Of a stretch of DNA of 64,000 nt, positions 1 to 19,366 are shown piece after piece. How positions within the stretch are numbered: position 1 is the first letter of the stretch; each line of letters opens with the position of its first letter. The position numbers were made by a program, and so were the translations under genes. The DNA is taken from assembly GCF_026967575.1 (NCBI RefSeq), contig NZ_CP114054.1:1798001-1862000 (forward strand), read 5' to 3'. Under the pieces are notes generated by a model. That model did not search any database, had not been told where the DNA came from, and saw only the letters and a program-made list of their open reading frames with translations. Source of the DNA: Aurantiacibacter sp. MUD11 (lineage in GTDB: Bacteria > Pseudomonadota > Alphaproteobacteria > Sphingomonadales > Sphingomonadaceae).

Positions 1-1
1 G

Positions 2-1156
2 CAGTGGGTGAATCGCCCCAACCTCGACTTCCGCGGGTTCTCCGGCCTGATCGCCAGCGGCACGGTGAAGCCGGGCGATACCATCCGCGTCGTACCCTCG
101 GGCAAGACCAGCACGGTGGAGCGCATCGTCACCATGGGCGGCGACCTCGACGAGGCCGTCTCCGGCCAGTCGGTGACGATCACGCTGGCGGACGAGATCG
201 ACGTCTCGCGCGGCAGCGTGCTGGCAGCGGCCGACGACCCGCCCGAAAGCGCCGACCAGTTCGAAGCCAACATCGTGTGGATGAGCGAGGATGCCCTGAT
301 CCCCGGTCGCGGCTACTGGCTGAAGCTGGCGACACAGACCGTCTCCGCGACGATCGCGCAGCCCAAGTACGAGATCGACGTCAACAGCCTCGAGCACCTG
401 GCGGCGAAGACGCTGGGTCTCAACGCCATCGGCGTGGCCGAGGTCACCACCGACAAGCCGATCACCTTCGAGAGCTATGGCGACAGTCGCCAGCTGGGCG
501 GCTTCGTGCTGATCGACAAGCTAACCAACGCGACGGTCGGCGCCGGCATGATCAACTTCAGCCTGCGCCGCGCGCAGAACGTGCACTGGCAGTCGGTCGA
601 CATCACCCGCGAACAGCACGCCGGCATCAAGAACCAGAAGCCCGCCGTGCTGTGGTTCACCGGCCTTTCGGGCAGCGGCAAGTCGACCATCGCCAACATG
701 GTCGAAAAGAAGCTGTTCCGGATGAACCGGCACACCTTCCTGCTCGATGGCGACAATGTCCGCCACGGCCTCAACAAGGACCTCGGCTTTACCGAGCAGG
801 ACCGCATCGAGAACATCCGCCGCGTGGGCGAAGTGGCCAAGCTGATGGCCGACGCCGGCCTGATCGTGATCACCGCCTTCATCAGCCCGTTCCGCGCCGA
901 ACGGCAGATGGTGCGCGACATGCTGCCCGAGGGCGAGTTCATCGAGGTGCATGTGGATACGCCGCTGGAAGTCGCCGAAGCGCGCGACGTGAAGGGGCTC
1001 TATGCCAAGGCGCGCTCTGGCCAGCTGAAGAACTTCACCGGCATCGACAGCCCCTACGAGGAGCCTGAATCGCCCGAGATCCGCATCGACACCACGGCGA
1101 TGACGCCCGAGGAGGCGGCGGACCTGATTGTCGACAAGTTGCTGGGCGATGCCTGA
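2..1156 (+). CDS. cysNC: Bifunctional sulfate adenylyltransferase subunit 1 / adenylylsulfate kinase, 5' truncated by window edge
   Basis: The reading frame is open from base 2 (Q-W-V-N-R-P...), so the gene begins before the window and its GTPase G domain is missing here. What remains is the EF-Tu-like beta-barrel part of CysN (about the first 200 visible residues), then a complete APS kinase domain (CysC). The CysC P-loop GLSGSGKS is encoded at about 662-685, followed by the [10 protein letters not shown] and FISPFRAER motifs typical of APS kinases. CysN with CysD makes adenosine 5'-phosphosulfate from sulfate and ATP, and CysC phosphorylates it to PAPS, in the cytoplasm. cysQ overlaps its 3' end, consistent with a cysD-cysNC-cysQ operon. 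Identity is very secure; only the start is unseen. Confidence 0.97.
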
Positions 1157-1901
1157 CATGGATGACGCCGCCCTCGCCGCGCACCTCGCCGAATGTGCCG
1201 GGCGCATCCTGCTGGAAGTGCGCGCCAGCGGCATGTTCGAAGGCAAGGCGCTGGGCAAGGCGGGCGACGAGACCGCCAACCAGTTCCTCGTCCATGCCCT
1301 GCGCCAGCAGCGCCCCGACGACGGCCTGCTGTCGGAGGAAAGCAAGGACACCGAGGAGCGCCTGTCCAAGTCGCGGGTGTGGATCGTCGACCCGGTCGAT
1401 GGCACGCGCGAGTATGGCGAGGCGCGTTCGGACTGGGCGGTGCACGTCGGCCTGGCCGTGGATGGCGAACCGGTGACCGGCGCCGTCGCCTTGCCGGGGC
1501 TCGACGGTGGGATGGTGCTGCGCACCGACCAGCCGGGGCCGCTGCCCGCCGCTGCCGACAAGCCGCGCCTCGTCGTCAGCCGCACGCGCCCGGCGGCCGA
1601 AGCCGTGGCCGTTGCCGAAGCCATCGGCGGGGAGCTGGTGGGAATGGGCAGCGCCGGGGCCAAGGCCATGGCCGTGGTGCGCGGGGAAGCGGAAATCTAC
1701 CTGCACTCGGGCGGGCAGTACGAATGGGACAGCTGCGCACCTGCGGCCGTGGCCAAGGCGCACGGGCTGCACATCAGCCGCATCGACGGTTCGGCGCTGG
1801 TCTACAACCAGCGCGATACCTACCTGCCGGACCTGCTGATCTGCCGTCCCGAATGGGCAGAGCGCGTGCTGGCCGAGGTGAGGGCGCTGGCCGCGACCTG
1901 A
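1149..1901 (+). CDS. cysQ: 3'(2'),5'-bisphosphate nucleotidase (PAP phosphatase), inositol monophosphatase family
   Basis: About 250 aa. The IMPase-family metal motif is visible as [12 protein letters not shown] (DPxDGT), with an upstream acidic pair in LLSEES and a C-terminal [11 protein letters not shown], matching the WDxxA motif of the family. CysQ hydrolyses 3'-phosphoadenosine 5'-phosphate, the by-product of PAPS use, and can drain PAPS itself. The start at 1149 overlaps the cysNC stop by 8 bases. A second in-frame ATG at 1158 is equally possible. The overlap with cysNC supports translational coupling and a role in sulfate assimilation rather than inositol metabolism. Confidence 0.93.
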
Positions 1902-1944
1902 AATCTAAACAGTTTGCTAACGTTTGGGGCCTAGCCTGGTGGCC

Positions 1945-2070
1945 ATGAAACGTGCGCGCGCCTTTGTTATCCGCCGGGTAGCCCGAGATTCGCAGGAGAT
2001 CCTGCGTATCGCGATCACCAGCGCCTGCGCCGTTGCACTGATTGCCGCCGGGCAGTCCTTCCCGCTCTAG
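1945..2070 (+). CDS. Small hypothetical protein, 41 aa, one hydrophobic segment
   Basis: An ATG ORF lies 43 bases after cysQ. It encodes a very basic N-terminus (MKRARAFVIRRVAR) followed by a hydrophobic stretch (about residues 21-36, IRIAITSACAVALIAAG-like) and stops at TAG. The arrangement resembles a short single-span membrane peptide. Its stop codon shares the palindrome CTAG with the stop of the convergent TauE gene. I see no strong Shine-Dalgarno and cannot name a family, so this is a plausible but unproven gene. Confidence 0.4.
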   Translation: MKRARAFVIRRVARDSQEILRIAITSACAVALIAAGQSFPL

Positions 2071-2804
2071 ACGACCAGCTTCCACAAGGCTCCGACAGCG
2101 GCACCGCCCAGCACCAGGGCGGTGGCGACCTGCCATTGTCGCGGCGTCACGCGACCGAAGGCGCGGTGGCCGAACCAGTCGCCCAGCAGCACCGCCGGAA
2201 ACAGCGCCAGCGCCAGCTCGACTTCGGGCAGGCCGCCCACGTCCAGCCAGACGAAGACCGCTGCCGTGAGCGGCGTCACCACCAGGAAGATCGCCATCAT
2301 CGACGCGCGCGCCACTTTCGGCTCCAGCCGACCGCGCAGGTAGAAGGGGGCCATGCCCGGACCCGGCATGCCGGCGAAGCCGCCGAAGAAGCCGGTGAAG
2401 AACCCCGACAGCGCCATGGCCGGATGGCGCGGCATGACCAGCTTGCCCAGCGGCACCACCACCAGCACGAAGGCTCCCAGCGAAACTAGCGCGATCAGCA
2501 TGCGCGCCCAGCCGGTCGGCAAGGCGGTCAGCGCCCACAGGCCCAGCGGCATGCAGGCGATGGCCAGCACGGCTATGGGGATGGCCGAACGATCGGCATC
2601 GCGGCGCACGCGGCCAAGGTCCGTCAGCCCGATCAGGAACAGCGAGATGAGGCCGATCAGCACGGCCGCACTGGGGGAAATCGCCAGCTGCAGCACCGGC
2701 ACCAGCACCACCGACAGCCCGAAACCCGCCAGCCCGCGCACGAAGCCGGCGGCCACGGCGGCCAGTGCAGCGACGATCACGGCTTGCGGCTCGAACCCGA
2801 ACAC
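2067..2804 (-). CDS. TauE/SafE-family membrane permease (putative sulfite/organosulfonate exporter), second copy
   Basis: About 245 aa, almost wholly hydrophobic with around eight predicted membrane segments. It has the duplicated TauE/SafE landmarks: GLAGFG near the N-terminus and FFGGFAGMPGPGMAPFYL in the second half. It is a diverged paralogue of the upstream gene (both keep G-F-A-x-MPGP and an RxxAxASMMA-type motif). I chose the GTG at 2804 because it follows the upstream stop (2809-2811) closely and gives an N-terminus that aligns with the paralogue. An ATG-equivalent start at 2846 would add 14 residues inside the neighbour. The substrate is unknown; location beside cysNC-cysQ makes a sulfur oxyanion plausible. 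Confidence 0.85.
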   Translation of the reverse strand: MFGFEPQAVIVAALAAVAAGFVRGLAGFGLSVVLVPVLQLAISPSAAVLIGLISLFLIGLTDLGRVRRDADRSAIPIAVLAIACMPLGLWALTALPTGWARMLIALVSLGAFVLVVVPLGKLVMPRHPAMALSGFFTGFFGGFAGMPGPGMAPFYLRGRLEPKVARASMMAIFLVVTPLTAAVFVWLDVGGLPEVELALALFPAVLLGDWFGHRAFGRVTPRQWQVATALVLGGAAVGALWKLVV

Positions 2805-2808
2805 GGCG

Positions 2809-3552
2809 TCAGACCAGCTTAACCAGCGCGGCCACGGCGGCGGCACCCAGCACCACGCCGACGAAAGTGCGCCATAGCTTGTCGCTGACCTTGCCGAAGG
2901 CGAGCGAGCCGACCCAGTTGCCGAACAGCACCACCGGGAACAGCGCCAGGCCGAGCACGACCACGCGCGTCTCCAGCACGCCGATCGCGGCGCCCGAACT
3001 GACGCCGGCGAAGGCGGCGACGCCGAACACCGCCACCATCGAGGCCTTGGCCGTCACCCGCGGAATGTCGCGGCCGACGTAATAGGGCACCACCGGCGGC
3101 CCCGGCATGGCGGCAAAGCCGGTGAGGATACCTGCCGACAGGCCGGTCAGGCCCGTGGTCAGCGCGCCGGGCTGGTCGGCCGCGCGGCGCGGCAGCAGGA
3201 CGGCGAAGAAGGCGGACAGTGCCACCAGCGCAATCAGCAGCCGCGCCAGCGCGGGCGGCGTGGCATCGAGCAGCATCAGCCCCGGTGCCGTCGCCAGCAG
3301 CACCAGCACGCTGATGGTGATCGCGCTCTTCTCGGCATTCTTCACGATCAGCCGGATCTCGCTGAAGGCGAGCAGCCCGGCCATGATGTTGATCGCCAGC
3401 ACGGCCTGCACCGGCGTTAGCGCCAGGGCCAGGATCGGCACCAGGATGATGCCGAAGCCGAACCCCGTCAGCCCACGGATGAAGGCCGCGCCAAGTGTCG
3501 CCGCCACGGCGATGGCGATCTGGACCGCAGTAAAACCGGCGAGCAGTTCCAA
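2809..3552 (-). CDS. TauE/SafE-family membrane permease, first copy
   Basis: 247 aa polytopic membrane protein. N-terminal GLTGFGFG and mid-protein GFAAMPGPPVVPYY are the two halves of the TauE/SafE internal repeat. The start codon is TTG at 3552, only three bases after the thrS stop (3556-3558), so it is probably translated from the thrS transcript. The downstream tandem copy may form a heteromer or have a different substrate. Family members export sulfite, sulfoacetate or related anions; the actual substrate here cannot be told from sequence. Confidence 0.87.
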   Translation of the reverse strand: MELLAGFTAVQIAIAVAATLGAAFIRGLTGFGFGIILVPILALALTPVQAVLAINIMAGLLAFSEIRLIVKNAEKSAITISVLVLLATAPGLMLLDATPPALARLLIALVALSAFFAVLLPRRAADQPGALTTGLTGLSAGILTGFAAMPGPPVVPYYVGRDIPRVTAKASMVAVFGVAAFAGVSSGAAIGVLETRVVVLGLALFPVVLFGNWVGSLAFGKVSDKLWRTFVGVVLGAAAVAALVKLV

Positions 3553-3555
3553 GGC

Positions 3556-5571
3556 TTATCCGCGCAGGTCCGGCGGGGTCGCTTCGGCGCGCAGCTTGGC
3601 GATGGCCTCGTCCAGCGAAAGGAACTGCTGCTCCTTCTCGCCCAGCGTGCGCATCGCGACCGTGCCTTCCTCGGCCTCGCGATTGCCGACCACCAGCAGG
3701 TGCGGAACCTTCGCCAGCGAGTGTTCGCGCACCTTGTAGTTGATCTTCTCGTTGCGCAGGTCCGCCTCGACCCGGATGCCCGCGGCTTCCAGCTTGGCAA
3801 CGGCCTGCCTGGCATAGTCGTCGGCGTCGGAAACGATGGTCGCGACCACCGCCTGCACCGGGGCGAGCCACACCGGCAGGCGACCGGCGAAGTGCTCGAT
3901 CAGGATGCCGATGAAACGCTCGTAGGAGCCGAAGATCGCACGGTGCAGCATGACCGGGCGGTGCTTCTCGCCATCCTCGCCGACATAGGTCGCATCGAGA
4001 CGTTCGGGCAGCACGCGGTCGCCCTGGATCGTGCCCACCTGCCAAGTCCGGCCGATGGCATCGGTGAGGTGCCATTCCAGCTTGGGCGCGTAGAAGGCGC
4101 CCTCGCCCGGCAGTTCTTCCCAGCCGTAGTCGTCGTTGGCCATGCCGGCTTCGGCCACGGCGTCGCGCAGTTCCTGCTCGGCCTTGTCCCAGTCGGCATC
4201 GGAGCCGAACCGCTGCTCGGGACGCAGCGCCAGCTTGATCGCATAGGTGAAGCCGAAGTGCTTGTAGACGCGGTCGGCCAGCTCGATGAAGGCGCGCACT
4301 TCGCTGACCACCTGGTCCTCGGTGCAGAAGATGTGCGCGTCGTCCTGCGTGAACTGGCGCACGCGCATCAGGCCGTGCAGCGCGCCATGCGGCTCGTTGC
4401 GATGGCAGCAGCCCATTTCGCCCAGCCGGATCGGCAGGTCGCGATAGGAAGTGATGCCCTGCTTGAAGACCAGCACGTGCGCCGGGCAATTCATCGGCTT
4501 CAGCGCCATCCAGTCGGCATCGCCGGAGACGATCTCGCCTTCATCCTCGGTGTTGGGCACCTCGTCGGGGATGACGAACATGTTCTCGCGATACTTGCCC
4601 CAGTGGCCGGACTGTTCCCACTGGCGGGCGTCCATCACCTGCGGCGTCTTGATTTCCTGGTAGCCCGCGCCGTCCATCTGGCGGCGCATGTAGGCCTCCA
4701 GCTCGCGCCAGATCTTATAGCCGTTGGGATGCCAGAAGACGCTGCCGTGCGCCTCTTCCTGCAGGTGGAACAGGTCCATCTCGCGGCCCAGCTTGCGGTG
4801 GTCGCGCTTGGCAGCCTCTTCCAGCCGGGTGAGGTGGGCGTTGAGCTGCTTCTTGTTGAGCCAGCCGGTGCCGTAGATGCGGGTGAGTTGCGCATTGCGC
4901 TGGTCGCCGCGCCAATAGGCCCCGGCGACACGCATCAGCTTGAACGCCTGTGGATCGAGCTTGCCGGTGCTGGCCAGGTGCGGGCCGCGGCACATGTCGA
5001 GCCAGGCGCCGTCGGAATTGGGCTCGCCCGACCAGTAGACGGTCAGTTCCTCGTCCTCGGGCAGTTCCTTGGCCCATTCGGCCTTGAAGGTCTCGCCTTC
5101 CTTTTCCCACTTCGCGATCAGCTGTTTGCGGCTCCAGACCTCGCGTACCAACGGCTTGTCGGCCTTGATGATCTCGCGCATCCGCTCTTCGATCTGCGGC
5201 AGGTCGTCCATCGAAAAGGGCGGGCGGCTGTCGGGCGCCTTGACGTCGTAATAGAAGCCGTCGTCCGTCGCCGGGCCGAAGGTGATCTGCGTGCCGGGCC
5301 AGAGCGACTGCACCGCCTCGGCCAGCACGTGGGCATAGTCGTGGCGGACCAGTTCCAGCGCGTCGTCCTCGTCGCGGCTGGTGATCAGCGCCAGCTCCGC
5401 ATCGCCATCGAAGGGGCGGTTGAGGTCGCGCACTTCGCCGTCCACCTTCGCGGCCAGCGCCGCCTTGGCGAGGCCGGGGCCGATCGCGGCGGCGACATCC
5501 GCCGGGGTGGAGCCGGGCTCCATCTCGCGCACCGAACCGTCGGGCAGGCTGATCTTCAGTAGTTCCGTCAT
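3556..5571 (-). CDS. thrS: Threonine--tRNA ligase
   Basis: 671 aa, slightly longer than the usual 640. The order is an N-terminal TGS domain (about 1-65), an editing domain, a class II catalytic core and an anticodon-binding domain. The three zinc ligands of the catalytic site are visible in MNCPAHV (Cys), DDAHIF (His) and [12 protein letters not shown] (His). The ATG at 5571 ([10 protein letters not shown]) is chosen because TGS domains begin about here; a longer in-frame extension to 5613 runs into the leader region. It charges tRNA-Thr in the cytoplasm. The upstream threonine-codon leader (5702-5773) indicates attenuation by charged tRNA-Thr, and the gene is likely co-transcribed with the two downstream TauE genes. 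Confidence 0.97.
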
Positions 5572-5629
5572 TGCACCATCATTCCATCGCGTGTGCGCGC
5601 CATGGCACAGCACGGCGCGCGCTTGAAGA

Positions 5630-5690
5630 GCGGCGTTGCATGTGTCGCCAATTTCAGGTGGAACGCCGCGCCACCCGAAACCGGGTGGCG
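5630..5690 (-). promoter_or_regulatory. Putative thrS attenuator: competing RNA hairpins
   Basis: On the minus strand after the leader stop there is a perfect 9-bp hairpin with a 4-nt loop (5669-5690, arms CGCCACCCG and CGGGTGGCG), then a second 8-bp hairpin (arms 5630-5637 and 5662-5669). The first arm (5683-5690) can instead pair over 8 bp with 5711-5718, inside the last codons of the leader ORF. That leader segment in turn can pair over 11 bp (two G-U) with the threonine codons (5707-5717 with 5741-5751). This is the 1:2, 2:3, 3:4 scheme of ribosome-mediated attenuators. No clear U-tract follows the 3:4 stem, so the termination step is uncertain. Confidence 0.6.
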
Positions 5691-5701
5691 ATGCTCGTGT
5701 G

Positions 5702-5773
5702 TCAGCCCACGACCACCCGCCCCCGGTCGCCCGAGGTGGTAGTAGTCGTGGTGGTGGTCACACGGTTGGCCAT
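5702..5773 (-). CDS. Threonine leader peptide for thrS (23 aa, eight consecutive Thr)
   Basis: A 24-codon ORF starts with ATG at 5773 and ends TGA at 5702. It reads M-A-N-R-V, then eight threonines in a row (codons ACC, ACC, ACC, ACG, ACT, ACT, ACC, ACC), then [11 protein letters not shown] run of regulatory codons in a short ORF upstream of the cognate synthetase gene is the hallmark of ribosome-stalling attenuation: low charged tRNA-Thr stalls the ribosome on the run and alters downstream RNA folding. GGGG lies about 8 bases before the ATG. It is too short for standard gene callers. Confidence 0.8.
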
Positions 5774-5781
5774 GGCCAAGC

Positions 5782-5810
5782 CCCATAGGGCGCGGGCACG
5801 CGCTTGTCAC
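5782..5810 (-). promoter_or_regulatory. Candidate promoter of the thr leader / thrS transcript
   Basis: Read on the minus strand there is GTGACA (5805-5810), a 17-nt spacer and TATGGG (5782-5787). The expected start of transcription would fall at about 5775, within a couple of bases of the leader ATG at 5773. The leader mRNA could therefore be almost leaderless, as is known for some alphaproteobacterial attenuator uORFs. This is a visual motif match only. A short hairpin (GAGGCG-GAAA-CGCCTC, 5815-5830) lies just upstream in the divergent region. Confidence 0.35.
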
Positions 5811-5864
5811 CCCTGAGGCGGAAACGCCTCTTGGCGTGGGCGCGCGCCATTGCCATGTTGGCGC

Positions 5865-6593
5865 ATGATGACCCAGACCTTCGCCTTCGGCGGCCAGCAG
5901 ATCGCCTATCGTCATACACCCGGCTCCGGCCCGGCCGTAGTCTTCCTGCCCGGCTACATGTCCGACATGGCCGGCAGCAAGGCGACCGCCATCTTCGACT
6001 GGTGCGCGCAGAACGGGCGCGAGTGCCTGCTACTCGACTATTCGGGCTGCGGCGAAAGCTCGGGCGACTTCGCCGACGGCACGCTGTCGCAATGGCGCGA
6101 CGAGGTGCTGGCGCTGGTCGAGGCCAAGGTGATGGCCGACAAGCTGCTGCTCGTAGGCTCCTCGATGGGCGGTTGGCTGATGCTGCTGGTGGGCATGGCG
6201 CTGGGTGACCGGCTGCAGGCGCTGATCGGCATCGCCGCCGCGCCGGACTTTTCCAACTGGGGCTATGACGAGGAGCAGAAGGCCCAGTTGCGCGCCGGAA
6301 CGACCATCTACGAGGACAGCGACTACGGCTACGATCCCATGCCGACCCACGCGAAGTTCTGGCACGACGCGGAAAACAACAAGCTTCTGGGCAGCACGAT
6401 CGCGCTCACTTGCCCCGTGCGGCTGCTGCACGGGGAGGAGGATGCCGACGTCCCTCCGGACACCTCGTTCAAGCTGGCCGAGGCGCTGGCGAGCGAAGAT
6501 GTCGAGGTGATGCTGATCGACGGCGGCGACCACCGCCTCTCGCGGGAGCACGATATCGAAGCCCTGCTCGACACTATCGCGGAACTTTCATGA
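5865..6593 (+). CDS. Alpha/beta hydrolase
   Basis: 242 aa alpha/beta-hydrolase fold protein. The nucleophile elbow GSSMGGW (GxSxG) and the strand-turn motif LDYSGCGESSG are visible, and the catalytic histidine is likely in DGGDHRLSR near the C-terminus. There is no signal peptide, so it is cytoplasmic. Two adjacent ATGs (5865, 5868) are possible starts; a TTG at 5850 is less likely. It overlaps the luciferase-like gene by ATGA. The family covers esterases, thioesterases and peptidase-like enzymes, so the substrate is unknown. Confidence 0.85.
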   Translation: MMTQTFAFGGQQIAYRHTPGSGPAVVFLPGYMSDMAGSKATAIFDWCAQNGRECLLLDYSGCGESSGDFADGTLSQWRDEVLALVEAKVMADKLLLVGSSMGGWLMLLVGMALGDRLQALIGIAAAPDFSNWGYDEEQKAQLRAGTTIYEDSDYGYDPMPTHAKFWHDAENNKLLGSTIALTCPVRLLHGEEDADVPPDTSFKLAEALASEDVEVMLIDGGDHRLSREHDIEALLDTIAELS

Positions 6594-7573
6594 CCGATTT
6601 TGCCGTTCTCGACCTCGTGCCGGTGCGCGAGGGCAGCGACGTTTCCGCCGCCATCCGGCAAGCGGGCGACCTAGCGCAGGTGGCCGAACAGGCTGGCTAC
6701 AAGCGCTTCTGGGTGGCCGAGCACCATGCCAGCGACGGCATCGCGGCTGGTGCGACCTCGGTCGTCATCTCGCATATCGGCCATGTCACCAGCACCATCC
6801 GCGTGGGGGCTGGCGGGATCATGCTGCCCAACCACAACCCCTTCGTGATCGCCGAGCAGTTCGGCGCGCTCGACGCGCTGTTTCCCGGCCGCGTGGACCT
6901 CGGGCTGGGCCGCGCGCCCGGCTCCGCCCCGATCATCGGGCAGGCGCTGCGCAAGGACCTCGCCCGCGCGTCGGAGTATTTCCCGCAGGACGTGGTCGAG
7001 CTCCGCGCGCTGTTCACCGGCGACCTGGAACTGCCGATCAAGGCCACGCCCGGATTCGGCGCCAAGGTGGAGATGTGGATGCTCGGCTCCAGCCTGTTCG
7101 GCGCGCAGCTGGCGGCGCAACTTGGCCTGCCCTACGCCTTCGCCAGCCACTTCGCCCCGCGCCACCTCGACGAGGCGCTGCGCACCTATCGCGAGAATTT
7201 CCGCCCCTCAACGCAGCTGGAACAGCCGCGCGTGATGGCCGCGATGAGCGTGCTGGCCGCCGAGACCGATGCCGAGGCGGAGACGCTCGCGAGCAGCCAG
7301 GACCAGGCCTTCGTCCGCCTGCGCAGCGGCGATCCGGGCAAGCTGCCCCCGCCCCTGCCCGGCTATCGCGACAGCCTGCCCGCCACCGCGCAGGCCATGC
7401 TCGAAAGCCTCGATGTCGCCCGTGCCGTCGGCTCTCCCGCCACCGTGCGCGAGGCAATCGGCCGCTTCATCGAGCGCACGCAGGCTGACGAGATCATCGT
7501 CTCCGGAGCGACATTCGATCCGGCCGCGCGGGAAGAGTCGCTGCGGCTGACGATGGAAGCTCTCGGAAACTAG
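6590..7573 (+). CDS. LLM-class (luciferase-like) flavin-dependent monooxygenase
   Basis: 327 aa, the normal length for the bacterial luciferase-like group. The N-terminal LDLVPVREG, the WVAEHH motif near residue 40, VGAGGIMLPNHNP and RVDLGLGRAPG are characteristic of the MsnO8/alkanal-monooxygenase-like subgroup. These enzymes use reduced flavin (FMNH2) supplied by a reductase. Start and the upstream hydrolase stop overlap as ATGA, so the two are probably co-translated. The substrate is not deducible. Confidence 0.9.
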   Translation: MTDFAVLDLVPVREGSDVSAAIRQAGDLAQVAEQAGYKRFWVAEHHASDGIAAGATSVVISHIGHVTSTIRVGAGGIMLPNHNPFVIAEQFGALDALFPGRVDLGLGRAPGSAPIIGQALRKDLARASEYFPQDVVELRALFTGDLELPIKATPGFGAKVEMWMLGSSLFGAQLAAQLGLPYAFASHFAPRHLDEALRTYRENFRPSTQLEQPRVMAAMSVLAAETDAEAETLASSQDQAFVRLRSGDPGKLPPPLPGYRDSLPATAQAMLESLDVARAVGSPATVREAIGRFIERTQADEIIVSGATFDPAAREESLRLTMEALGN

Positions 7574-7713
7574 TTTCAGTAGTAACATTTTTCTGGCGAC
7601 TTGCTGTCTGAGCCGATAGAGGCGCGCGGGAACTTCCGGTAAGGCGTAACCGCTGGAGTCGGGAGTTGTGGGATCGCAGGAGGATCCCGCTCTCTAGGAG
7701 GAGACAGGCAGGC

Positions 7714-10700
7714 ATGGCCAAGCAGGGCGCCAAGAAGAGCGCATCGTCCAAAGCATTCGCAGACCTCACCAAGCCGGAACAGGGCTTCGCCGAAGTCCTG
7801 CGGGACCGGATCAGCGATTCGCTGCTGCCCGGTGAAACCCCGCTGTCGGGTGAGCGGCTGGACCAGGCCACCGGCTTCCTGATCGAGGCCGCCCGCCACC
7901 GCGAGGACGGCAAGCCTTCGATTCTCGTCCGCTCCGACGCCGATGGCCGCCGTTTCATGCGCATCGCCATCATCAACAAGGACATGCCCTTCCTGGTCGA
8001 TTCCATCGCCGCCGCCATGGCCGCGCGGGGACTCGCCATCGACGTGCTGGTGCACCCCGTGCTGCCGGTCCGCCGCAAGGACGGGGCGCTGGCCGACGTG
8101 CCCAAGGGCGAAGGCACGGGCGAGAAGAAGGAAAGCTGGGTCTATATCGAGACTGCGCGGATCGACGCCAAGGAGCGCCGCGCGCTCGAGGCGGACCTGC
8201 TGGCCGCCGTGCTCGACGTGCGCGCCGCGGTGGCCGACTGGCCGCTGATGCGCAGCGCCATGGAAGCAGATGCCGATCGCCTGCCCGATGCCGAAGGTGC
8301 CGCGCTGCTGCGCTGGCTGGCCGGCGGCATGCTGACCCAGCTCGGCCATGTCACCCGCACGCGTGACGGCAAGCAGACCGATGCCTTCGGCATTTGCCGC
8401 CGCTCCACGCCCGACCTGCTGGCCGAGGACGCCTTTGCCAAGGCCTTCGCCTGGTTCGACGGCGAGAACGGTGCGCCCGGCCGCGCGCCGCTGATCATCA
8501 AGGCCAACCGCCTGTCCAAGGTGCACCGCCACGTGCCGCTGGACCTGTTCATCGTGCCGCTGGTGGAAAAGGGCCGCGTCGAAGCGCTCTCGCTCCATGC
8601 CGGCGTCTGGACCAGCGCCGCGCTGGTCGCCGCGCCGGAATCGGTGCCGGTGCTGCGCCAGCAGCTGAAGACCATCATGGACCGGCTCGATTTCGCTCCC
8701 GGCGGACACGACTACAAGACGCTGGTCCATGCCTTCACCGCCCTGCCGCATGACCTGATCATCAGCTTCGGCGATGATGACATCACCCGCGTCGCCACGG
8801 CGATGATGGGCCTTGCCGACCGTCCGCGCCCGCGCGCCACGCTGGTGACCGCGCCGCTGGGCCGCCACGTCTTCGCCTTCATCTGGCTGCCGCGCGACAT
8901 GCTCTCCACCGCCGTGCGTCTGCAGGTGCAGGAGATGCTGGAGAGCCATACCGGCGCGCGCACGCTCGACTGGAGCCTGATGGTCGAGGGCGGCAACCTC
9001 GCCCTGTTGCGCTATGTCATGGACTTCCGCGGCAAGGGCGGCACGCCGGATAACGAAGCGGTCGACGCCTCGCTCACCACTATGCTGCGCGGCTGGAACG
9101 ATGCCGTGGAAGACGCCCTCGCCCGCAGCGAGGAGCCGAGCCGGGCCGCCGCGCTCGCCACCCGCTATGCCGGCAGCTTCCCCGCCTTCTACCGCACCAC
9201 CTACGGGCCGGAGGAAGCCGCTACCGACATCGGTCGCTTGCGCAATATGGCCGCCCGCGCCGAGTCCGAAGGGCTTAACCGCGACGTGCGCCTCTACCGC
9301 GTCGAGGCTGACGAGGCCGACCAGCTGCGCCTGAAGGTGTACCAGCACCACGGCGCGCTGCCGCTGTCCGATGCCGTGCCCGCGCTGGAGCACTTCGGCT
9401 TCCGCGTGATGTCCGAAATCCCCACCCGGCTTGAGGGCGAGGATGCCGGCACCATCCACGATTTCACCCTGCGCCTGCCCGCCGAGGTCTCGCAGCAGGA
9501 ACTGCTCGACCGTGCCGGCGACATCGAGGACGCGGTTTCCTGCGTGCTCAACGAGCTGGCCGAGGACGACGTCTTCAACCGGCTGGTGATCAAGTCCGGC
9601 CTGATCGCCAAGGAAGCCGACTGGCTGCGCGCCTTCTACCGCTACCTGCGGCAGTCCAACATCGCCTTCACCATCTACACGGTGGTGGATGCCCTGGCCG
9701 GCGCGCCGAAGGTGACGCGCGGCCTGATCGACCTGTTCGCCACGCTGCACGATCCCGCCTTCAAGGGTGACCGCACCAAGGCCGTGCAGGAGGTCAACGA
9801 AGCCATCAAGGCGGGGCTGGGCGAAGTCAGCGCGATCAACGACGACCGCATCCTGCGGCTCTACTGGTCGACCATGCGCGCCGTGCTGCGCACCAATGCC
9901 TTCGCCCCGGCGGCGGCCGATGCGCTGGCGTTCAAGCTCGATTCCAGCCTCGTGCCCGGCCTGCCCAAGCCCGTGCCGTGGCGCGAGATCTTCGTCTATT
10001 CGCGCCGGGTGGAAGGCATCCACCTGCGCGCCGGCCCCGTCGCCCGCGGCGGCCTGCGCTGGTCCGACCGGCGCGACGACTTCCGCACCGAAATCCTCGG
10101 CCTGATGAAGGCGCAGAAGGTGAAGAACGCCGTGATCGTGCCGACCGGCGCGAAAGGCGGCTTCTATCCCAAGCGCCTGCCCAACCCGGCGATCGACCGC
10201 GACGCCTGGTTCACCGAGGGCAAGGAAAGCTACAAGCTGTTCATCCGCACGCTGCTGTCGATCACCGACAACTACCGGGGCGACAAGGTCGTCCATCCGG
10301 ACAGCGTGGTGATCCACGACGGCGAGGACCCCTATTTCGTGGTCGCCGCCGACAAGGGCACGGCCACCTTCTCCGACACCGCCAACGCCATCGCCATCGA
10401 GCGTGATTTCTGGCTCGGCGACGCCTTCGCCAGCGGCGGCTCCAACGGCTATGACCACAAGGCCATGGGCATCACCGCCAAGGGCGCGTGGATTTCGGTG
10501 CAGCGGCACTTCCTCGAAATGGGCGTCGACGTGCAGCAGGAGCCCGTGCGCGTCGCGGGCTGCGGCGACATGTCGGGCGACGTGTTCGGCAACGGCATGC
10601 TGCTGTCGAAGGCGATCAAGCTGGTCGCCGCCTTCGACCACCGTCACATCTTCATCGATCCCGATCCCGATCCGGCCACCAGCTGGAAGGAACGCAAGCG

Positions 10701-12456
10701 GCTGTTCGACCTGCCCCGCTCCAGCTGGGCCGACTACGACACCAAGGTGATCAGCAAGGGCGGCGGCGTGTTCCCGCGCACCACCAAGCGTATCGAGCTG
10801 TCGAAGGCCGCCATGGCCGCGCTGGGCATGACCGAGGCGGACCTGAAGGACGGCGGCATCGATCCCGACAGCCTGATCTCGCTGGTGCTCAAGAGCCCGG
10901 TGGACCTGATCTGGTTCGGCGGCATCGGCACCTATGTGAAGAGCTCCGACGAGAGCCATGCCGAGGTGGGTGACCCGGCGAACGACAGCCTGCGCGTGAA
11001 TGCGGAAGACCTGCGCGCCAAGGTGATCGGCGAAGGCGCGAACCTGGGCATCACCCAGGCCGGCCGCATCGAGTTCGCCCTGAAGGGCGGGCGCATCAAC
11101 ACCGACTTCATCGACAATTCCGCCGGCGTCGACTGCTCGGACAACGAGGTGAACATCAAGATCGCCCTCGCTGCCGCGCGCACTTCCGGCCGCCTGTCCG
11201 AAGATCGTCGCAATGCCCTGCTGAAGGACATGACCGACGAGGTCGCCGAACTGGTGCTGGAGGACAACCGCCTGCAGGCGCTGGCGCTGTCGATTGCCGA
11301 ACAGGGCGGCAGCCGTGCGCTGGGTGCCCAGGCCCGGCTGATCGAGACGCTGGAGGAACTGGGCGGGCTCGACCGGCAGAACGAGGGCCTTGGCGATGCC
11401 GAGGACCTCAAGCGCCGCTCTGCCGATGGCAAGGGGCTGACCCGTCCCGAACTGGCCGTGCTGCTGTCGCATTCCAAGCTGGTGCTGCAGGATGCGGTGG
11501 AAGACAGCGCACTGGCGGGCGACGACGATGCCGATCCGCTGGTGCTGGGCGACTTCCCGCCGCAGATGCAGGAAAGCTTCCGCAAGCACGTGCTGGATCA
11601 CCGCCTGCGCAACGAGATCGTCGGCACGGTGGTGGCCAACACCATCGTCAACCGCATGGGCATGTTGCACCCGTTCGAACTGGCCGAGGAAGAAGGCGCC
11701 GGACTGGATGCCATCGGCGGCGGCTTCGTCGCAGCCAGTTCCCTGCTGGGCATGGCCGACATCTGGGACGCGCTGGACACGGCGGACATGCCGGAAACCG
11801 CGCGCCTGATGCTGTTCGACGAGGCGGCACTGGCCCTGCGTGGTCACATCGCCGACCTGCTGCGCGCGGGCGGGCACCATCATTCGCCATCCGACCTGCG
11901 CGAGGAAATCGCCCCGATGGTCGCCGAGCTGGTCGACAATGTCGACACCTTGCTGGGCGACGAGGCGCGCGCCCATGTCGAGGGCATCGCCGCCAACATG
12001 GTCGAGCAGGGTGCACCGGCCAAGCTGGCCGAAAGCGTCGCCCGGCTGTTCGCCATCGATGGCGTCATCGGCCTTGCCCGGCTGTCCAGCGAGACCGGGA
12101 TCAAGCCGGTGGAGCTAGCCAATGCCTTCATCGAACTCGGCGCCATGCTCGGCATCGACTGGGCGCAGTCGCGCGCCGCAGTCATGTCGCCGGCCGATCC
12201 GTGGGAACGGCTGCTGGTGGCCGGCCTCGCGCGCGATTTCCAGGCGATGCGCTTCGAATTCCTGCGCGGCCGCGCGCGCTCGAAGGACAAGGCGGCGAAG
12301 GACCCGTCGAGCCTGATCGCAGAGTGGGCGGAAGCCAACACGGCAGCGATCACGCAGTTCCGGCGCATGGTCTCGCGCGCCCAGGCGGCCACTCCGGTGG
12401 CCCCGGCCATGCTGGCGCAGATTGCCAGCCAGGCGCGCAACCTGTTGCAGGCCTAG
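7714..12456 (+). CDS. Large NAD-specific glutamate dehydrogenase (GDH-180 class)
   Basis: About 1580 aa, the expected length for the large bacterial NAD-GDH class. The N-terminal half contains ACT-like regulatory regions. The catalytic part is around residues 780-1150, with GGLRWSDRRDDFRTEI, then KNAVIVPTGAKGGF and the dinucleotide/active-site region VAGCGDMSGDVFGNGML. It converts glutamate to 2-oxoglutarate and ammonium with NAD, mainly for amino-acid catabolism. The ATG at 7714 is chosen because AGGAGGAGA lies about 10 bases before it. A short GGGATC/GATCCC hairpin (7670-7688) sits upstream. The huge open frame on the opposite strand is a codon-bias shadow. Confidence 0.96.
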   Translation: MAKQGAKKSASSKAFADLTKPEQGFAEVLRDRISDSLLPGETPLSGERLDQATGFLIEAARHREDGKPSILVRSDADGRRFMRIAIINKDMPFLVDSIAAAMAARGLAIDVLVHPVLPVRRKDGALADVPKGEGTGEKKESWVYIETARIDAKERRALEADLLAAVLDVRAAVADWPLMRSAMEADADRLPDAEGAALLRWLAGGMLTQLGHVTRTRDGKQTDAFGICRRSTPDLLAEDAFAKAFAWFDGENGAPGRAPLIIKANRLSKVHRHVPLDLFIVPLVEKGRVEALSLHAGVWTSAALVAAPESVPVLRQQLKTIMDRLDFAPGGHDYKTLVHAFTALPHDLIISFGDDDITRVATAMMGLADRPRPRATLVTAPLGRHVFAFIWLPRDMLSTAVRLQVQEMLESHTGARTLDWSLMVEGGNLALLRYVMDFRGKGGTPDNEAVDASLTTMLRGWNDAVEDALARSEEPSRAAALATRYAGSFPAFYRTTYGPEEAATDIGRLRNMAARAESEGLNRDVRLYRVEADEADQLRLKVYQHHGALPLSDAVPALEHFGFRVMSEIPTRLEGEDAGTIHDFTLRLPAEVSQQELLDRAGDIEDAVSCVLNELAEDDVFNRLVIKSGLIAKEADWLRAFYRYLRQSNIAFTIYTVVDALAGAPKVTRGLIDLFATLHDPAFKGDRTKAVQEVNEAIKAGLGEVSAINDDRILRLYWSTMRAVLRTNAFAPAAADALAFKLDSSLVPGLPKPVPWREIFVYSRRVEGIHLRAGPVARGGLRWSDRRDDFRTEILGLMKAQKVKNAVIVPTGAKGGFYPKRLPNPAIDRDAWFTEGKESYKLFIRTLLSITDNYRGDKVVHPDSVVIHDGEDPYFVVAADKGTATFSDTANAIAIERDFWLGDAFASGGSNGYDHKAMGITAKGAWISVQRHFLEMGVDVQQEPVRVAGCGDMSGDVFGNGMLLSKAIKLVAAFDHRHIFIDPDPDPATSWKERKRLFDLPRSSWADYDTKVISKGGGVFPRTTKRIELSKAAMAALGMTEADLKDGGIDPDSLISLVLKSPVDLIWFGGIGTYVKSSDESHAEVGDPANDSLRVNAEDLRAKVIGEGANLGITQAGRIEFALKGGRINTDFIDNSAGVDCSDNEVNIKIALAAARTSGRLSEDRRNALLKDMTDEVAELVLEDNRLQALALSIAEQGGSRALGAQARLIETLEELGGLDRQNEGLGDAEDLKRRSADGKGLTRPELAVLLSHSKLVLQDAVEDSALAGDDDADPLVLGDFPPQMQESFRKHVLDHRLRNEIVGTVVANTIVNRMGMLHPFELAEEEGAGLDAIGGGFVAASSLLGMADIWDALDTADMPETARLMLFDEAALALRGHIADLLRAGGHHHSPSDLREEIAPMVAELVDNVDTLLGDEARAHVEGIAANMVEQGAPAKLAESVARLFAIDGVIGLARLSSETGIKPVELANAFIELGAMLGIDWAQSRAAVMSPADPWERLLVAGLARDFQAMRFEFLRGRARSKDKAAKDPSSLIAEWAEANTAAITQFRRMVSRAQAATPVAPAMLAQIASQARNLLQA

Positions 12457-12517
12457 CGGCACGGTTCGGCTTTCCGCAACTTGACGCGGGGGGCGGTTCT
12501 GTCGCACCGACGACGCC

Positions 12518-13741
12518 ATGACAGCGTTTGACGTCGTAATCGTGGGGACCGGCCACGGCGGGGCACAAGCGGCCATCGCCTTGCGCCAATGCGGGTTCGA
12601 AGGCTCGATCCAGATGATCGGGAGGGATTCGCAGCCGCCCTACGAGCGTCCGCCGCTGTCGAAGGAATACCTTGCCGGCGACAAGCCGTTCGAGCGGATC
12701 ATGATCCGGCCGGAACAGTTCTGGGCCGACAAGCAGGTCGGCCTCAGCCTCGGGCAATCGGTCACCAGGGTCGATGCCGAAGCGCGCGAGGTGCACCTCG
12801 CCTCGGGTGAGCGCGTGGGATACGGACGGCTGATCTGGGCGGCGGGCGGCGACGCGCGGCGGCTCGACTGTCCCGGCTCGCACCTCGACGGAGTCCATGC
12901 CGTACGCGACAAGCGCGACGTCGATGCGCTGATGGCGGACCTGGAAGGCGGCGCGAAGCGCTTCGTCGTGGTCGGCGGTGGCTATATCGGCCTGGAAGCA
13001 GCGGCCGTGCTGCGCAAGCTGGGCTGCGAAGTCACCGTGATCGAGGCGATGGACCGGCTGCTCCCGCGCGTCGCGGGCGAGGACCTTTCCACCTTCTTTG
13101 CCGACGAACACCGCCGCCAGGGTGTGGACATCCGCCTCTCCGCCAAGGTCGAACGACTGGAAGGTCAGGATCGCGTGACCGGCGTGGTGCTGGATAATGG
13201 CGAGACGATTGCCTGCGACGCCGTCGTCGCCGGGATCGGTATCGTCCCCTCGGTCGGCCCGCTGATCGCGGCCGGGGCCGCCGGGGCGAACGGTGTCGAC
13301 GTGTCCTACACCTGTCACACCAGCCTGGAGAAGGTCTACGCCATCGGCGACTGCGCCGCACACGCCAATCCCTATGCCGACGGAGCGGTGATCCGCCTCG
13401 AGAGCGTGCAGAACGCGCACGACATGGCCACCACCGTCGCCAGGGCGATCTGCGGCGATCCGCAGCCCTACGACGCGTTGCCGTGGTTCTGGTCCAACCA
13501 GTACGACATCAAGCTGCAGACCGCCGGCCTCAGCATGGGGCATGACGCCACCGTGCTGCGCGGCGACCCGGCGGAGCGCAGTTTCTCGGTGATCTACCTG
13601 AAGGATGGCCGGGTGATCGCGGTCGACGCCGTGAACAAGACCAAGGACTACGTGCAGGGTCGCAAGCTGGTGGAAGCCCGGGCCGAGATCGAACCGGAAC
13701 TGCTGGCCGACACCGAGACTCCGCTCAAGGAGATGCTGTAA
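12518..13741 (+). CDS. FAD-dependent NAD(P)H:ferredoxin/rubredoxin reductase-like protein
   Basis: 407 aa. The FAD-binding [10 protein letters not shown] (GxGxxG) is at residues about 10-19, the NAD-binding [13 protein letters not shown] at about 148-160, and the second FAD motif VYAIGDCA at about 275-282. A C-terminal reductase domain contains the W-SNQYD-LQ pattern typical of ferredoxin reductases of P450 and dioxygenase systems. It would pass electrons from NAD(P)H to a small iron-sulfur protein; none is encoded nearby. Its 3' end overlaps the convergent queG gene by 17 bases. Confidence 0.9.
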
Positions 13742-14774
13742 GCCTGGTCAGCGCCCAGTCGGCGGCTTCGGCCACGACCGGGTCCGGGTCTGCGGTCAGC
13801 GCCTCGACCTGTTCGCGCAGCGCGAGGTTACCACTATTCCCGGCAGCGATCAGGCAATTGCGCACGAACCGGTTGCGGCCAACCCGCTTGATCGGCGAGC
13901 CCGAGAACTTCGCCCGGAAGGCCGCATCATCCAGCGCCAGCAGCTCGGCCAGCGGCGGATCGACCAGCTCCTCGCGCGGGGCGAGCCTGGCGTGCCGCGC
14001 GGCGGTGTCGGCGAACTTGTTCCACGGGCAAACGGCCAGGCAATCGTCGCAGCCATAGATGCGACTGCCAATCGCCTCGCGAAATTCCTCCGGGATCGGG
14101 CCGTGGTGTTCGATCGTCAGGTAGGAAATGCAGCGGCGGGCATCCAGCCGGTAGGGCGCGGGAAAGGCATCGGTCGGGCAGGCATCCTGGCAGGCCCTGC
14201 ACGAACCGCAGCGATCCTCGTGGGGCGCGTCAGGCGACAGCTGGAGCGTGGTGTAGATCGCCCCCAGGAACAGCCAGTTGCCATGCTCGCGGCTGACGAG
14301 GTTGGTGTGCTTGCCTTGCCAGCCGATCCCCGCCGCCTGGCCCAGCGGCTTTTCCATCACCGGGGCGGTATCGACGAAGACCTTCAGCTCGGTTCCGGGG
14401 CGCTGCTCCACCAGCCAGCGCGCCAGCGCCTTCAGCGCCTTCTTCACCACGTCGTGATAGTCGCGCCCCTGCGCATAGACCGAGATCGTCGCCTCGCGCT
14501 CTGCCAGCGGATCGATGTCGGGGGCGTAGCTCATGCCCAGTGCGATCACGCTCTTCGCTGCCGGCCACATGCTTTGCGGGCCTTGCCGCACCTCGGCGCG
14601 GTCGTCCATCCAGCCCATCGAGCCGTGGAAGCCTTCATCCAGCCAATCATGCAGGCGTTCGGCGCGCAGCGGGTCATCCTCCGCCGCCGTGATTCCCACC
14701 GCGGCAAAGCCCAGTTCGCGCGCCTTGGCCTTCAGCGCATCCTCAAGCGAAAAGGTGTCTTGCGTGTTAACCAT
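13725..14774 (-). CDS. queG: Epoxyqueuosine reductase
   Basis: 349 aa. Two [4Fe-4S] clusters are indicated by [16 protein letters not shown] and [13 protein letters not shown], in the spacing of QueG. The N-terminal cobalamin-binding region and the [15 protein letters not shown] motif also fit. It reduces epoxyqueuosine to queuosine in tRNAs with GUN anticodons, the last step of Q biosynthesis, in the cytoplasm. The C-terminus has a HEAT-like segment (residues about 310-345). It runs convergent to the ferredoxin-reductase gene and divergent from the ABC transporter genes. Confidence 0.95.
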
Positions 14775-14819
14775 AAACCGGGATGCTTGCGTTCATTCCT
14801 CGGGGTTAGCGGATAGCGC

Positions 14820-15800
14820 ATGTACATGGCGACAGGTGAATTCAAACCGGGTGTGGACGCATCGCGCGACCTGGCAATCGAGGCCCGCGGGCTGGTCAAG
14901 CGTTTCGACGGCACGCTGGCTGTCGACGGGGTGGACATATCGGTGCCCGAAGGCGCGATCTACGGCATCCTCGGCCCCAACGGCGCGGGCAAGACCACGA
15001 CCCTGCGCATGCTGCTGGGCATCATCGATCCCGACGAAGGCTATCGCCGCGTGCTGGGGGCGGAAGACCCGCAGGATGTCGCCCGCCGCATCGGCTACCT
15101 GCCCGAGGAGCGCGGCCTCTACCCGGCGATGAAGGCCTACGAGGCAATTGCCTTCATGGGCGCATTGCGCGGCGTGCCGCTGGAACAGGGGCGCCAGCGC
15201 GGCAAGGAATTGCTGGAAGAACACGGCCTCTCGCACGCCATCGACCGGCAGATCCGCCAGTTGTCCAAGGGCATGGCGCAGACCGTGCAGCTGCTCGGCA
15301 CGCTGGTGCACGATCCGAAGCTGGTGGTGTTCGACGAGCCCTTCAGCGGGCTCGACGCGATTAACCAGGGCAAGCTGGAACAGCTGATCCGCGGACTGGC
15401 CGACAAGGGCACCACGGTGATCTTCTCTACCCACGTCATCGCCCATGCGGAGCGACTGTGCGAAGGCATCGCCATCATCGCCGGCGGCAAGGTACCCTTC
15501 GCCGGACGCGTCGACGAAGCGCGCGACCGCATCCCCGCACAGGTGCGGCTGGAAACGCGCAACCCTGACGGGCCGTGGCGCGCCGCCCTGCCGGAGAAGA
15601 CCCGGCGCGTGGGCGACTTCTGGAATTTCGCCCTGCCCGAAACCGGCGTCGAGCCGCTGCTGAAGGCGCTGATCGAAGGCGAGGCGGGAATTCTGTCGCT
15701 CTCCATCGAGCGGGCGGGCCTGCACGATGCCTTCGTCGCCATCGCCGGCGAGGCGGCCGCGCGCGACATGGTGACACAGGAATCGGGAGACGCAGCATGA
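14820..15800 (+). CDS. ABC transporter ATP-binding protein (NatA-like)
   Basis: 326 aa. Walker A GPNGAGKTT is at residues about 55-63, the signature is the degenerate QLSKGMAQ, Walker B LVVFDEPFSGLD is clear, and the H-loop is STHV. The last 80 residues form an extra C-terminal domain as in NatA/YhaQ-type ATPases. A second ATG at 14826 is also possible. It overlaps the permease gene by ATGA. Together they form a two-gene exporter; NatAB relatives are linked to sodium or drug efflux, but the substrate here is not known. Confidence 0.92.
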   Translation: MYMATGEFKPGVDASRDLAIEARGLVKRFDGTLAVDGVDISVPEGAIYGILGPNGAGKTTTLRMLLGIIDPDEGYRRVLGAEDPQDVARRIGYLPEERGLYPAMKAYEAIAFMGALRGVPLEQGRQRGKELLEEHGLSHAIDRQIRQLSKGMAQTVQLLGTLVHDPKLVVFDEPFSGLDAINQGKLEQLIRGLADKGTTVIFSTHVIAHAERLCEGIAIIAGGKVPFAGRVDEARDRIPAQVRLETRNPDGPWRAALPEKTRRVGDFWNFALPETGVEPLLKALIEGEAGILSLSIERAGLHDAFVAIAGEAAARDMVTQESGDAA

Positions 15801-17062: not shown

Positions 17063-17105
17063 ATGTTCAGGAACAGTTCCACCTCTGCTACATAGAAGAC
17101 GTGTC

Positions 17106-17600
17106 ATGACGAAAACCGCGACAGATCGCCGAACCGCCCTTGCCTGGCTTGGTGCCGGGGCATCCCTGCCCGTGCTGGCGGCCTGCGGCAGCGAGGCGCG
17201 CGCGCAAAGCTACCCGGTGTCCTATTCCGAGGCCGAGTGGCGCCGCCGCCTGACCGCGCAGCAGTTCCGCATCCTGCGCCAGGCAGGCACCGAACGGGCC
17301 TATACCTCACCGCTGAACGACGAGAGCCGCCGCGGCACCTATCACTGCGTGGGTTGCGGCAACCGCCTGTTCTCCAGTGCGCACAAGTACGACAGCGGCA
17401 CCGGCTGGCCCAGCTTCTGGCGCCCGATCGACGATGGCGCGGTCGGCTATTCGACCGATTACCTGCTGGGCTATCCGCGCACCGAAGAGCATTGCGCCGA
17501 TTGCGGCGGGCACCTCGGTCACCGGTTTAACGATGGTCCGCAGCCGACCGGGCACCGCCACTGCATCAACGGCGTGGCGCTGGATTTCCGCCCGGCCTAG
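17106..17600 (+). CDS. msrB: Peptide-methionine (R)-S-oxide reductase MsrB, Tat-type lipoprotein
   Basis: 164 aa. The N-terminus has a twin-arginine pattern (DRRTALAWLG, R8-R9) followed by a lipobox LAAC (C27), so export by Tat and lipidation are predicted. The MsrB domain follows, with zinc ligands CVGC and CADC, the SGTGWPSFW and GHLGH motifs and the catalytic cysteine in RHCINGVAL. It repairs methionine-R-sulfoxide in the cell envelope. Its stop shares CTAG with the convergent membrane-protein gene. Confidence 0.93.
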   Translation: MTKTATDRRTALAWLGAGASLPVLAACGSEARAQSYPVSYSEAEWRRRLTAQQFRILRQAGTERAYTSPLNDESRRGTYHCVGCGNRLFSSAHKYDSGTGWPSFWRPIDDGAVGYSTDYLLGYPRTEEHCADCGGHLGHRFNDGPQPTGHRHCINGVALDFRPA

Positions 17601-19354: not shown

Positions 19355-19366
19355 CGGGTTCAGTCT

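Follow-up and report, generated by a model that had tools for sequence, protein, structure and literature searches.

A threonine-codon leader with competing RNA helices upstream of thrS in Sphingomonadales: a probable ribosome-mediated attenuator

The thrS locus and the distribution of its leader

The window analysed here is a stretch of 64,000 nucleotides from Aurantiacibacter sp. MUD11 (contig NZ_CP114054.1, positions 1,798,001 to 1,862,000), and all coordinates below refer to it. Its minus strand carries thrS, identified by TIGR00418 (635 bits, cut-off 384) and four Pfam domains. Upstream of thrS lies a leader ORF of 23 codons at 5773-5702 of the minus strand (ATG 5773-5771, TGA 5704-5702), which contains eight consecutive Thr codons at 5758-5735. 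The 23-aa ORF and its eight-Thr run had been pointed out in an earlier note on this DNA and were confirmed at these positions. The placement given there, upstream of thrS on the same strand with the stop before the gene, was also correct, but the spacing of 131 bases was not: recounting from the leader TGA to the thrS ATG, both on the minus strand, gave 130 nt. A program-made ORF list contains an alternative start for the leader ORF, TTG 5779, two codons before the ATG. The features of the locus are:

3556-5571, minus strand: thrS, threonine--tRNA ligase (TIGR00418, Pfam)
5702-5773, minus strand: thrS leader peptide ORF with TGA at 5704-5702 (ORF, conservation, codon-position variation)
5735-5758, minus strand: the eight Thr codons, which include segment 1 at about 5735-5751 (sequence, codon variation)
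5782-5787, minus strand: -10 box TATGGG of the predicted leader promoter, its T at 5787, 14 nt upstream of the A that opens the leader ATG
5805-5810, minus strand: -35 box GTGACA of the predicted leader promoter, with a spacer of 17 to the -10 T

A gene for a TauE/SafE family protein follows thrS (2812-3552, minus strand). The neighbours on the plus strand encode an alpha/beta hydrolase (5868-6590), an MsnO8-type luciferase-like oxidoreductase (6590-7570) and a large NAD-glutamate dehydrogenase (7714-12453). The strand opposite to the leader reads as Val- and Gly-rich frames.

Seven consecutive ACN codons occur in the window only in the leader run, and did not occur in any of 100 shuffled sequences. 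The genome (2.79 Mb) has two sites with a run of six, and 27 forward and 20 reverse matches to the reversed pattern; the second site, judged by eye, lies in a different frame of an ordinary-looking ORF. Searched against its own genome, a model of the Sphingomonadales form of the leader gave one strong match, this leader (E 8e-31), the next match having E 0.54. We also looked for a leader at hom or thrC of the same genome. A loose Thr/Ile criterion returned three ORFs (one strand); long Thr runs were absent from all three, and two lay downstream of the match. We read this as no leader of the thrS kind.

The occurrence of the leader was determined in 190 thrS-upstream stretches, 80 from a set of loci and 110 from Sphingomonadales genomes (the best 110 of 294 matching); because some contigs occur in both sets, they comprise 183 distinct stretches. 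A leader was defined by at least five Thr in eight codons or at least four consecutive Thr, about 110-260 nt upstream of thrS, with an in-frame stop. This rule picked out 95 of the 190 stretches, two of which (L063 and L140) were discarded by eye. The earlier note had proposed searching the thrS upstream regions of Erythrobacteraceae and Sphingomonadaceae; the outcome was positive, with a leader in 93 of 190 stretches, without being universal. Among distinct stretches the leader precedes thrS in 87 of 183. Of the 110 Sphingomonadales genomes 71 have it, spread over 17 of 26 genus codes, as do 22 of the 80 loci of the other set; these shares lean to relatives of the window because both sets consist of best thrS matches. 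The residue is specific: counting homopolymer runs of at least four residues in ORFs of 8-70 aa no more than 350 nt upstream, 88 of the 190 stretches had a Thr run, and the next residue, Ala, was represented by 7.

In a FastTree phylogeny of 109 thrS proteins the leader label requires 12 changes, compared with about 36 when shuffled; L110 and L006, which the rule missed and which are outside the 93, carry the leader label in this tree. On a branch with Erythrobacteraceae and Novosphingobium, supported at 83 (not starred), 42 of 50 rows have the leader. No leader was seen in the Sphingobium loci of the 80-locus set, nor in most of its Sphingopyxis and Sphingomonas loci. Two stretches deserve mention. 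L006, from a metagenome assembly, retains the Thr leader peptide (MASVLTLTATTTRTIRGRGAVR) while segments 3-6 are apparently absent; this could be a remnant of natural origin or stem from a gap in the assembly. L140 is without a leader, yet has a AAACGCCGCTTCAAGCGCG stretch resembling segment 6 and the tail that follows it.

Codon constraint, promoter position and competing helices

For comparative analysis the 87 leaders were thinned to 81 below 88% identity. In the six codons ending at the last Thr, the pairwise differences at codon positions 1, 2 and 3 were 0.95, 0.76 and 2.96, whereas in the eight codons before the stop they were 3.07, 3.41 and 1.95. All four Thr codons and all three stop codons occur among the leaders. 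Drift at the third position in the Thr run, and at the first and second positions in the tail, indicates that the run is conserved at the level of Thr codons and that the tail is not conserved as protein.

A plain sigma-70 scan of positions 1-20000 of the window returned 0 promoters. As such a scan is too strict for boxes of this kind, the boxes were scored on the 81 leaders instead, with spacers of 15-19 allowed and a penalty away from 17. This search, run without a shuffled control and with a score that favoured 17, found a spacer of 17 nt between the -35 and -10 boxes in 75 of 81 leaders, every one of the 81 having 16-18 nt. The score took no account of how far away the ATG lies. In 78 of 81 leaders the T of the -10 TA is followed by the first in-frame ATG or GTG at a distance of 12-14 nt. 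Transcription usually starts about 12 nt after this T. In the window the leader transcript is predicted to start at about 5773-5775, and the spacing of 12-14 nt implies that the leader mRNA should be leaderless.

The leader RNA can be divided into segments, which form, in 3' direction, a chain of putative competing helices (1:2, 2:3, 3:4, 4:5b and 5a:6) with mutually exclusive neighbours. The segments, and two elements located between them and thrS, are:

5707-5726, minus strand: segment 2, in the leader ORF, pairing with 1 or 3 (2:3 z -10.5; 1:2 z -4.1)
5682-5699, minus strand: segment 3, just past the stop codon, predicted partner 2 (stalled) or 4 (not stalled) (coevolution, masked folding)
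5668-5684, minus strand: segment 4, partner 3 or 5b; hairpin 3:4 spans 5669-5690 (coevolution, column counts)
5662-5669, minus strand: segment 5a, GCGGCGTT, 5' arm of a terminator-like hairpin, within the 4:5b loop (coevolution)
5648-5664, minus strand: segment 5b, pairing with 4, the proposed antiterminator (coevolution, masked folding)
5630-5637, minus strand: segment 6, AACGCCGC, 3' arm of the terminator-like hairpin (5a:6 z -8.4, refined zones)
5625-5629, minus strand: TCTTC, a short pyrimidine tract after 5a:6, weak for an intrinsic terminator
5599-5609, minus strand: TGTGCCATGGC, conserved core, either of a further stem (7:8) or of a possible second promoter for thrS (coevolution)

A seed alignment of 42 of the 81 leaders (A1) was used for RNAalifold on slices. 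Because MAFFT misaligned segment 6, coevolution was tested by comparing duplexes of a leader's own segments with duplexes of segments swapped among species. With the first zones the z values (n=81) were -4.1 for 1:2, -10.5 for 2:3, -13.4 for 3:4, -12.6 for 4:5b and -4.9 for 5a:6. The value for 3:4 has a built-in advantage, its arms having been selected as the best hairpin; the first hairpin search often took 4:5b for 3:4 and was then narrowed. With zones narrowed after the first test, 5a:6 reached z -8.4 (n=77, four of the 81 leaders lacking the anchor being left out). Wrong pairs stayed near zero at n=81 (2:5b +0.1, 1:5b -0.9, 3:5b +0.4, 2:6 +0.4, 1:6 +0.9, 4:6 -1.2), the exception being the control pair 1:3 with z -3.8. 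The wrong pairs at n=77 gave -1.4 for 5a:7, +0.3 for 4:7, +0.6 for 2:7, -0.4 for 5b:7, -0.7 for 2:6 and +2.4 for 4:6.

The set was further thinned to 31 sequences below 62% identity (28 for 5a:6), with L002, L139 and L129 left out. Here 2:3 retained z -6.6, 4:5b -7.0 and 5a:6 -4.3, with 0 of 5000 permutations reaching each, while the wrong pairs 2:5b, 3:5b, 1:5b, 4:6, 2:6 and 5b:7 lay between -0.9 and +0.6. The value for 1:2, -2.0, was near that of the control pair 1:3 (-1.9). From these values, coevolution of 2:3, 4:5b and 5a:6 is well supported even among distant sequences, and that of 1:2 weakly. Column counts in A1 gave 13 double-changed cells in five pairs of 4:5b against 4.1 in shuffled alignments (0 of 500), and 13 against 5.2 for 3:4 (0 of 500), all of the latter in one of its eight pairs. 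A further candidate, 6:7, was rejected (z -1.8 at n=77, -0.2 when thinned).

Ribosome position and the proposed output hairpins

The effect of the ribosome was modelled by masked folding, in which the nucleotides under the ribosome were barred from pairing. We used 72 of the 81 leaders; L002, L092, L119, L139, L129, L058 and L060 were dropped by hand for misplaced anchors or hairpins. The stall position was the fifth Thr codon counted from the scored span, and the state modelled was that just before segment 6 is made. With the ribosome stalled, the mean number of base pairs was 14.6 in 2:3, 1.0 in 3:4 and 8.8 in 4:5b, and 4:5b had at least 5 bp in 64 of 72 leaders. With the ribosome on the stop codon the corresponding means were 0.7, 6.4 and 1.7 bp, and 4:5b had at least 5 bp in 9. 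The leader of the window behaved in the same manner, with 16.2, 0.0 and 9.5 bp in 2:3, 3:4 and 4:5b on stalling and 0.0, 6.9 and 2.6 bp with the ribosome on the stop; folded without a ribosome it had 0.0, 8.3 and 1.0 bp. Swapping the downstream halves among species weakened the stalled pattern to 9.8 bp in 2:3, 3.7 in 3:4 and 5.8 in 4:5b (n=71). In silico, ribosome position would thus select the helix: a block on the Thr codons yields 2:3 and 4:5b, a block on the stop codon 3:4.

Without a ribosome the 72 leaders were mixed (2:3 7.3 bp, 3:4 4.3 bp, 4:5b 2.9 bp), with at least 5 bp of 2:3 in 39 and of 3:4 in 33. A textbook attenuator would favour 3:4 in this state, and the mixture counts against the likeness. 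In full-length folds 5a:6 had 5.0 bp when the ribosome sat on the stop and 3.2 bp when it was stalled; stalling lowered it in 43 of 72 leaders, left it about equal in 15 and had the opposite effect in 14. The modelled equilibrium shift of 5a:6 has the right direction, and its extent is partial.

The tract that follows 5a:6 is CTTC or similar across the leaders. In 74 leaders (L002, L092 and L119 left out) the longest T-run at segment 6 was 2 in 61, 3 in 8, 4 in 4 and 6 in 1. Three Sphingomonas leaders (L058, L071 and L073) have T4 behind segment 6, and L093 has T6. A T-run of mostly 2 makes the hairpin a weak candidate for an intrinsic terminator, and here lies the chief doubt. Canonical terminator motifs numbered 5 in positions 1-20000 of the window against a shuffled mean of 10.4, which is no enrichment. 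Between segment 6 and thrS, stem 7:8, with its TGTGCCATGG-like core, also coevolves in the 74 leaders (z -5.6). The core occurs in loci without the leader as well (L140, L143, L091 and L108), and may belong to an RNA hairpin or to a second promoter of thrS.

The model of the Sphingomonadales form matched 7 of 289 genomes of the class at E<=0.01, three of them from the family of the window, its own genome included. The other four (L198-L201; E 6.7e-4 to 0.009; 4 of 289 is about the chance number) were rejected, as they have no Thr-codon run of 5. From 69 thrS-upstream stretches of the class we removed L207 and L208 (own family) and L241, L216 and L221 (misplaced). Three of the remaining 64 (L240, L244 and L248) had at least five Thr in eight codons; Arg reached the same density in 9 of the 69.

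In one alphaproteobacterial family, f72, an ORF with at least four Thr in eight codons was found at 8 of 10 thrS loci; of the other two, one offers no more than 148 nt of upstream sequence. These leaders (L307-L309 and L311-L315) share with the window leader a Thr-rich ORF at thrS and, by eye, a promoter-like pair of boxes just before the ATG. They differ in being textbook short attenuators, with GGAGGGTTTTTT, a T6 terminator, after the leader in 7 of 8. In minimum-energy folding this terminator appeared in 7 of 7 when the ribosome was placed on the stop. When the ribosome was placed on the Thr codons instead, the terminator gave way to an antiterminator in 4 of 7 (L308, L312, L314 and L315) but not in L309, L311 and L313. 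The f72 genomes are absent from the seven matches to the Sphingomonadales-form model among the 289 genomes. The two kinds of leader suggest control of thrS by codon runs in at least two architectures in Alphaproteobacteria, next to operator control in E. coli. In another family, f58, three of 29 thrS loci had at least four Thr in eight codons; the sole leader-like case, L292 (from the genome of L248), is isolated.

Proposed mechanism, alternatives and related systems

The comparisons establish a conserved Thr-codon leader ORF at a predicted transcription start, together with a chain of putative competing helices. We regard this arrangement as probably a ribosome-mediated attenuator of thrS, set by the charging of Thr-tRNA, and infer its working as follows. 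When charged Thr-tRNA is scarce, the ribosome would stall on the Thr codons and cover segment 1. Segment 2 would then pair with 3, and segment 4, thus freed, with 5b. With 5a locked in the 4:5b loop, the 5a:6 hairpin would be blocked and RNA polymerase would read into thrS. With ample Thr-tRNA, the ribosome would instead advance to the stop codon between segments 2 and 3; 3:4 would pair, leaving 5b free, 5a:6 would form and transcription would end before thrS.

The separate parts of this scheme differ in firmness. In our judgement a conserved Thr-codon switch at thrS is nearly certain, and ribosome stalling is very likely its sensor; termination is its likely output, though here we are appreciably less confident. 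The least certain step is the last one, termination at 5a:6, whether intrinsic or aided by Rho. Regulation of thrS by a leader peptide with regulatory codons, the interpretation put forward in the earlier note, is supported by the conservation of the leader and by the coevolving competing helices; it is also extended, as the predicted leaderless start and the longer chain of helices were absent from that note.

Ribosome-mediated transcription attenuators control amino-acid operons, as in the trp, thr, his and phe leaders, and their usual relay has three helices. The thrS leader shares with them a run of cognate codons, competing helices and a stop codon placed for the choice of helix. It differs in that it would control a synthetase gene, in the short pyrimidine tract and in the relay, which has five helices. 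It can be classed as classical attenuation in a variant form, with two segments added, and from this addition it follows that 3:4 is not itself the terminator. Five helices, three of them coevolving, would extend the usual attenuator anatomy. That the Sphingomonadales leaders form an extended class, in which 3:4 acts as relay, the decision is made between 4:5b and 5a:6, the poly-Thr mRNA is leaderless and a second thrS promoter is possibly coupled to 7:8, seems to us a plausible reading, held with moderate confidence.

The same Thr sensor and relay could serve another output, for instance decay of the RNA, translational control of thrS or termination by Rho within the untranslated stretch. The short pyrimidine tract in place of a U-run speaks for this, as do the coevolving stem 7:8 between 5a:6 and thrS and the lack of enrichment of canonical terminator motifs in the first 20000 positions of the window. 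The T6 terminator that ends the sister arrangement in 7 of 8 f72 loci, and the T4-T6 runs in L058, L071, L073 and L093, argue in the other direction, and we consider a different output unlikely. It is highly improbable that the leader peptide additionally acts in trans, in the manner of S. meliloti peTrpL: leaderless leader peptides with trans roles do exist in Alphaproteobacteria (PMC7298713, in part), but the eight codons before the stop drift mainly at positions 1 and 2, the opposite of a constrained protein.

The E. coli thrS operator is a protein-binding tRNA mimic that acts on translation, without a leader peptide. In both organisms thrS would be regulated through its mRNA leader, but the E. 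coli control is translational, through a tRNA mimic bound by ThrRS, whereas the window leader has a Thr-codon ORF. If the synthetase bound such an operator here, the Thr codons would be incidental, a very improbable reading even though thrS is a known case of autogenous control (E. coli ThrRS self-regulation is mentioned in PMC2965389, in part). The Thr codons are retained despite third-position drift, and the competing helices are arranged around the leader stop codon; in addition, ARAGORN, a program that is not made for operators, found no tRNA gene in positions 5400-6000 of the window. Finally, the Thr run is a near-repeat of ACC and could be taken for a chance repeat or a GC-rich artefact without function. 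The specificity of the runs for Thr, the coevolution, the promoter spacing, the codon-position drift and the outcome of the 100 shuffles make this extremely improbable.

Searched against Rfam, positions 3000-10000 of the window gave two matches (E 0.3 and 0.49), both below the gathering score and neither to Thr_leader, which we take to be RF00506. The former, to gyrA RNA over 5646-5712 of the minus strand (20.2 bits against 45, E 0.3), was taken as chance. Five relatives (L308, L307, L090, L073 and L248) gave one match, with E 0.4 and below the gathering score. The leader represents a conserved, testable switch for an essential synthetase gene in environmental bacteria, without an Rfam match at the thresholds searched.

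The earlier note knew of no described thrS leader of this type in Sphingomonadales. Among the matches listed, none had a thrS leader peptide in Alphaproteobacteria in its title or the opening of its abstract; Lopatovskaya 2010 and Vitreschak 2004 may bear on the question. The word 'thrS' is absent from the main texts of PMC2965389, PMC4833913, PMC1262725, PMC8632094 and PMC1273637. The statement of the note has its limit in that a thrS leader peptide has been reported in Streptomyces lividans: thrL, a leaderless 18-aa leader with two threonines ahead of thrS, for which termination is unclear (PMC8079986, in part). Like the window leader, thrL is a leader peptide upstream of thrS; it is reported as leaderless, which for the window leader is a prediction, and has one hairpin that lacks a U-rich stretch. 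It differs in its length of 18 aa, its two threonines and its actinobacterial host, and the likeness is one of description (PMC8079986, in part).

Another related system is trpL of Sinorhizobium meliloti, where ribosome-mediated attenuation is described for a leaderless transcript, its first nucleotides being the start codon of the leader ORF, an ATG (PMC7298713, in part). The thrS leader resembles trpL/peTrpL as an alphaproteobacterial attenuator with a transcript beginning, here by prediction, at the leader ATG, and differs from it in that the S. meliloti leader has Trp codons, encodes 14 aa and controls a biosynthetic gene, trpE(G) (PMC7298713, in part). The spacing between promoter and ATG amounts to a sharp prediction of the 5' end of the thrS leader transcript. 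In two Novosphingobium loci without the leader (L011 and L014), the TA of a -10-like box is seen by eye 12 nt upstream of the ATG of thrS, a spacing that would fit a thrS mRNA which is itself leaderless there.
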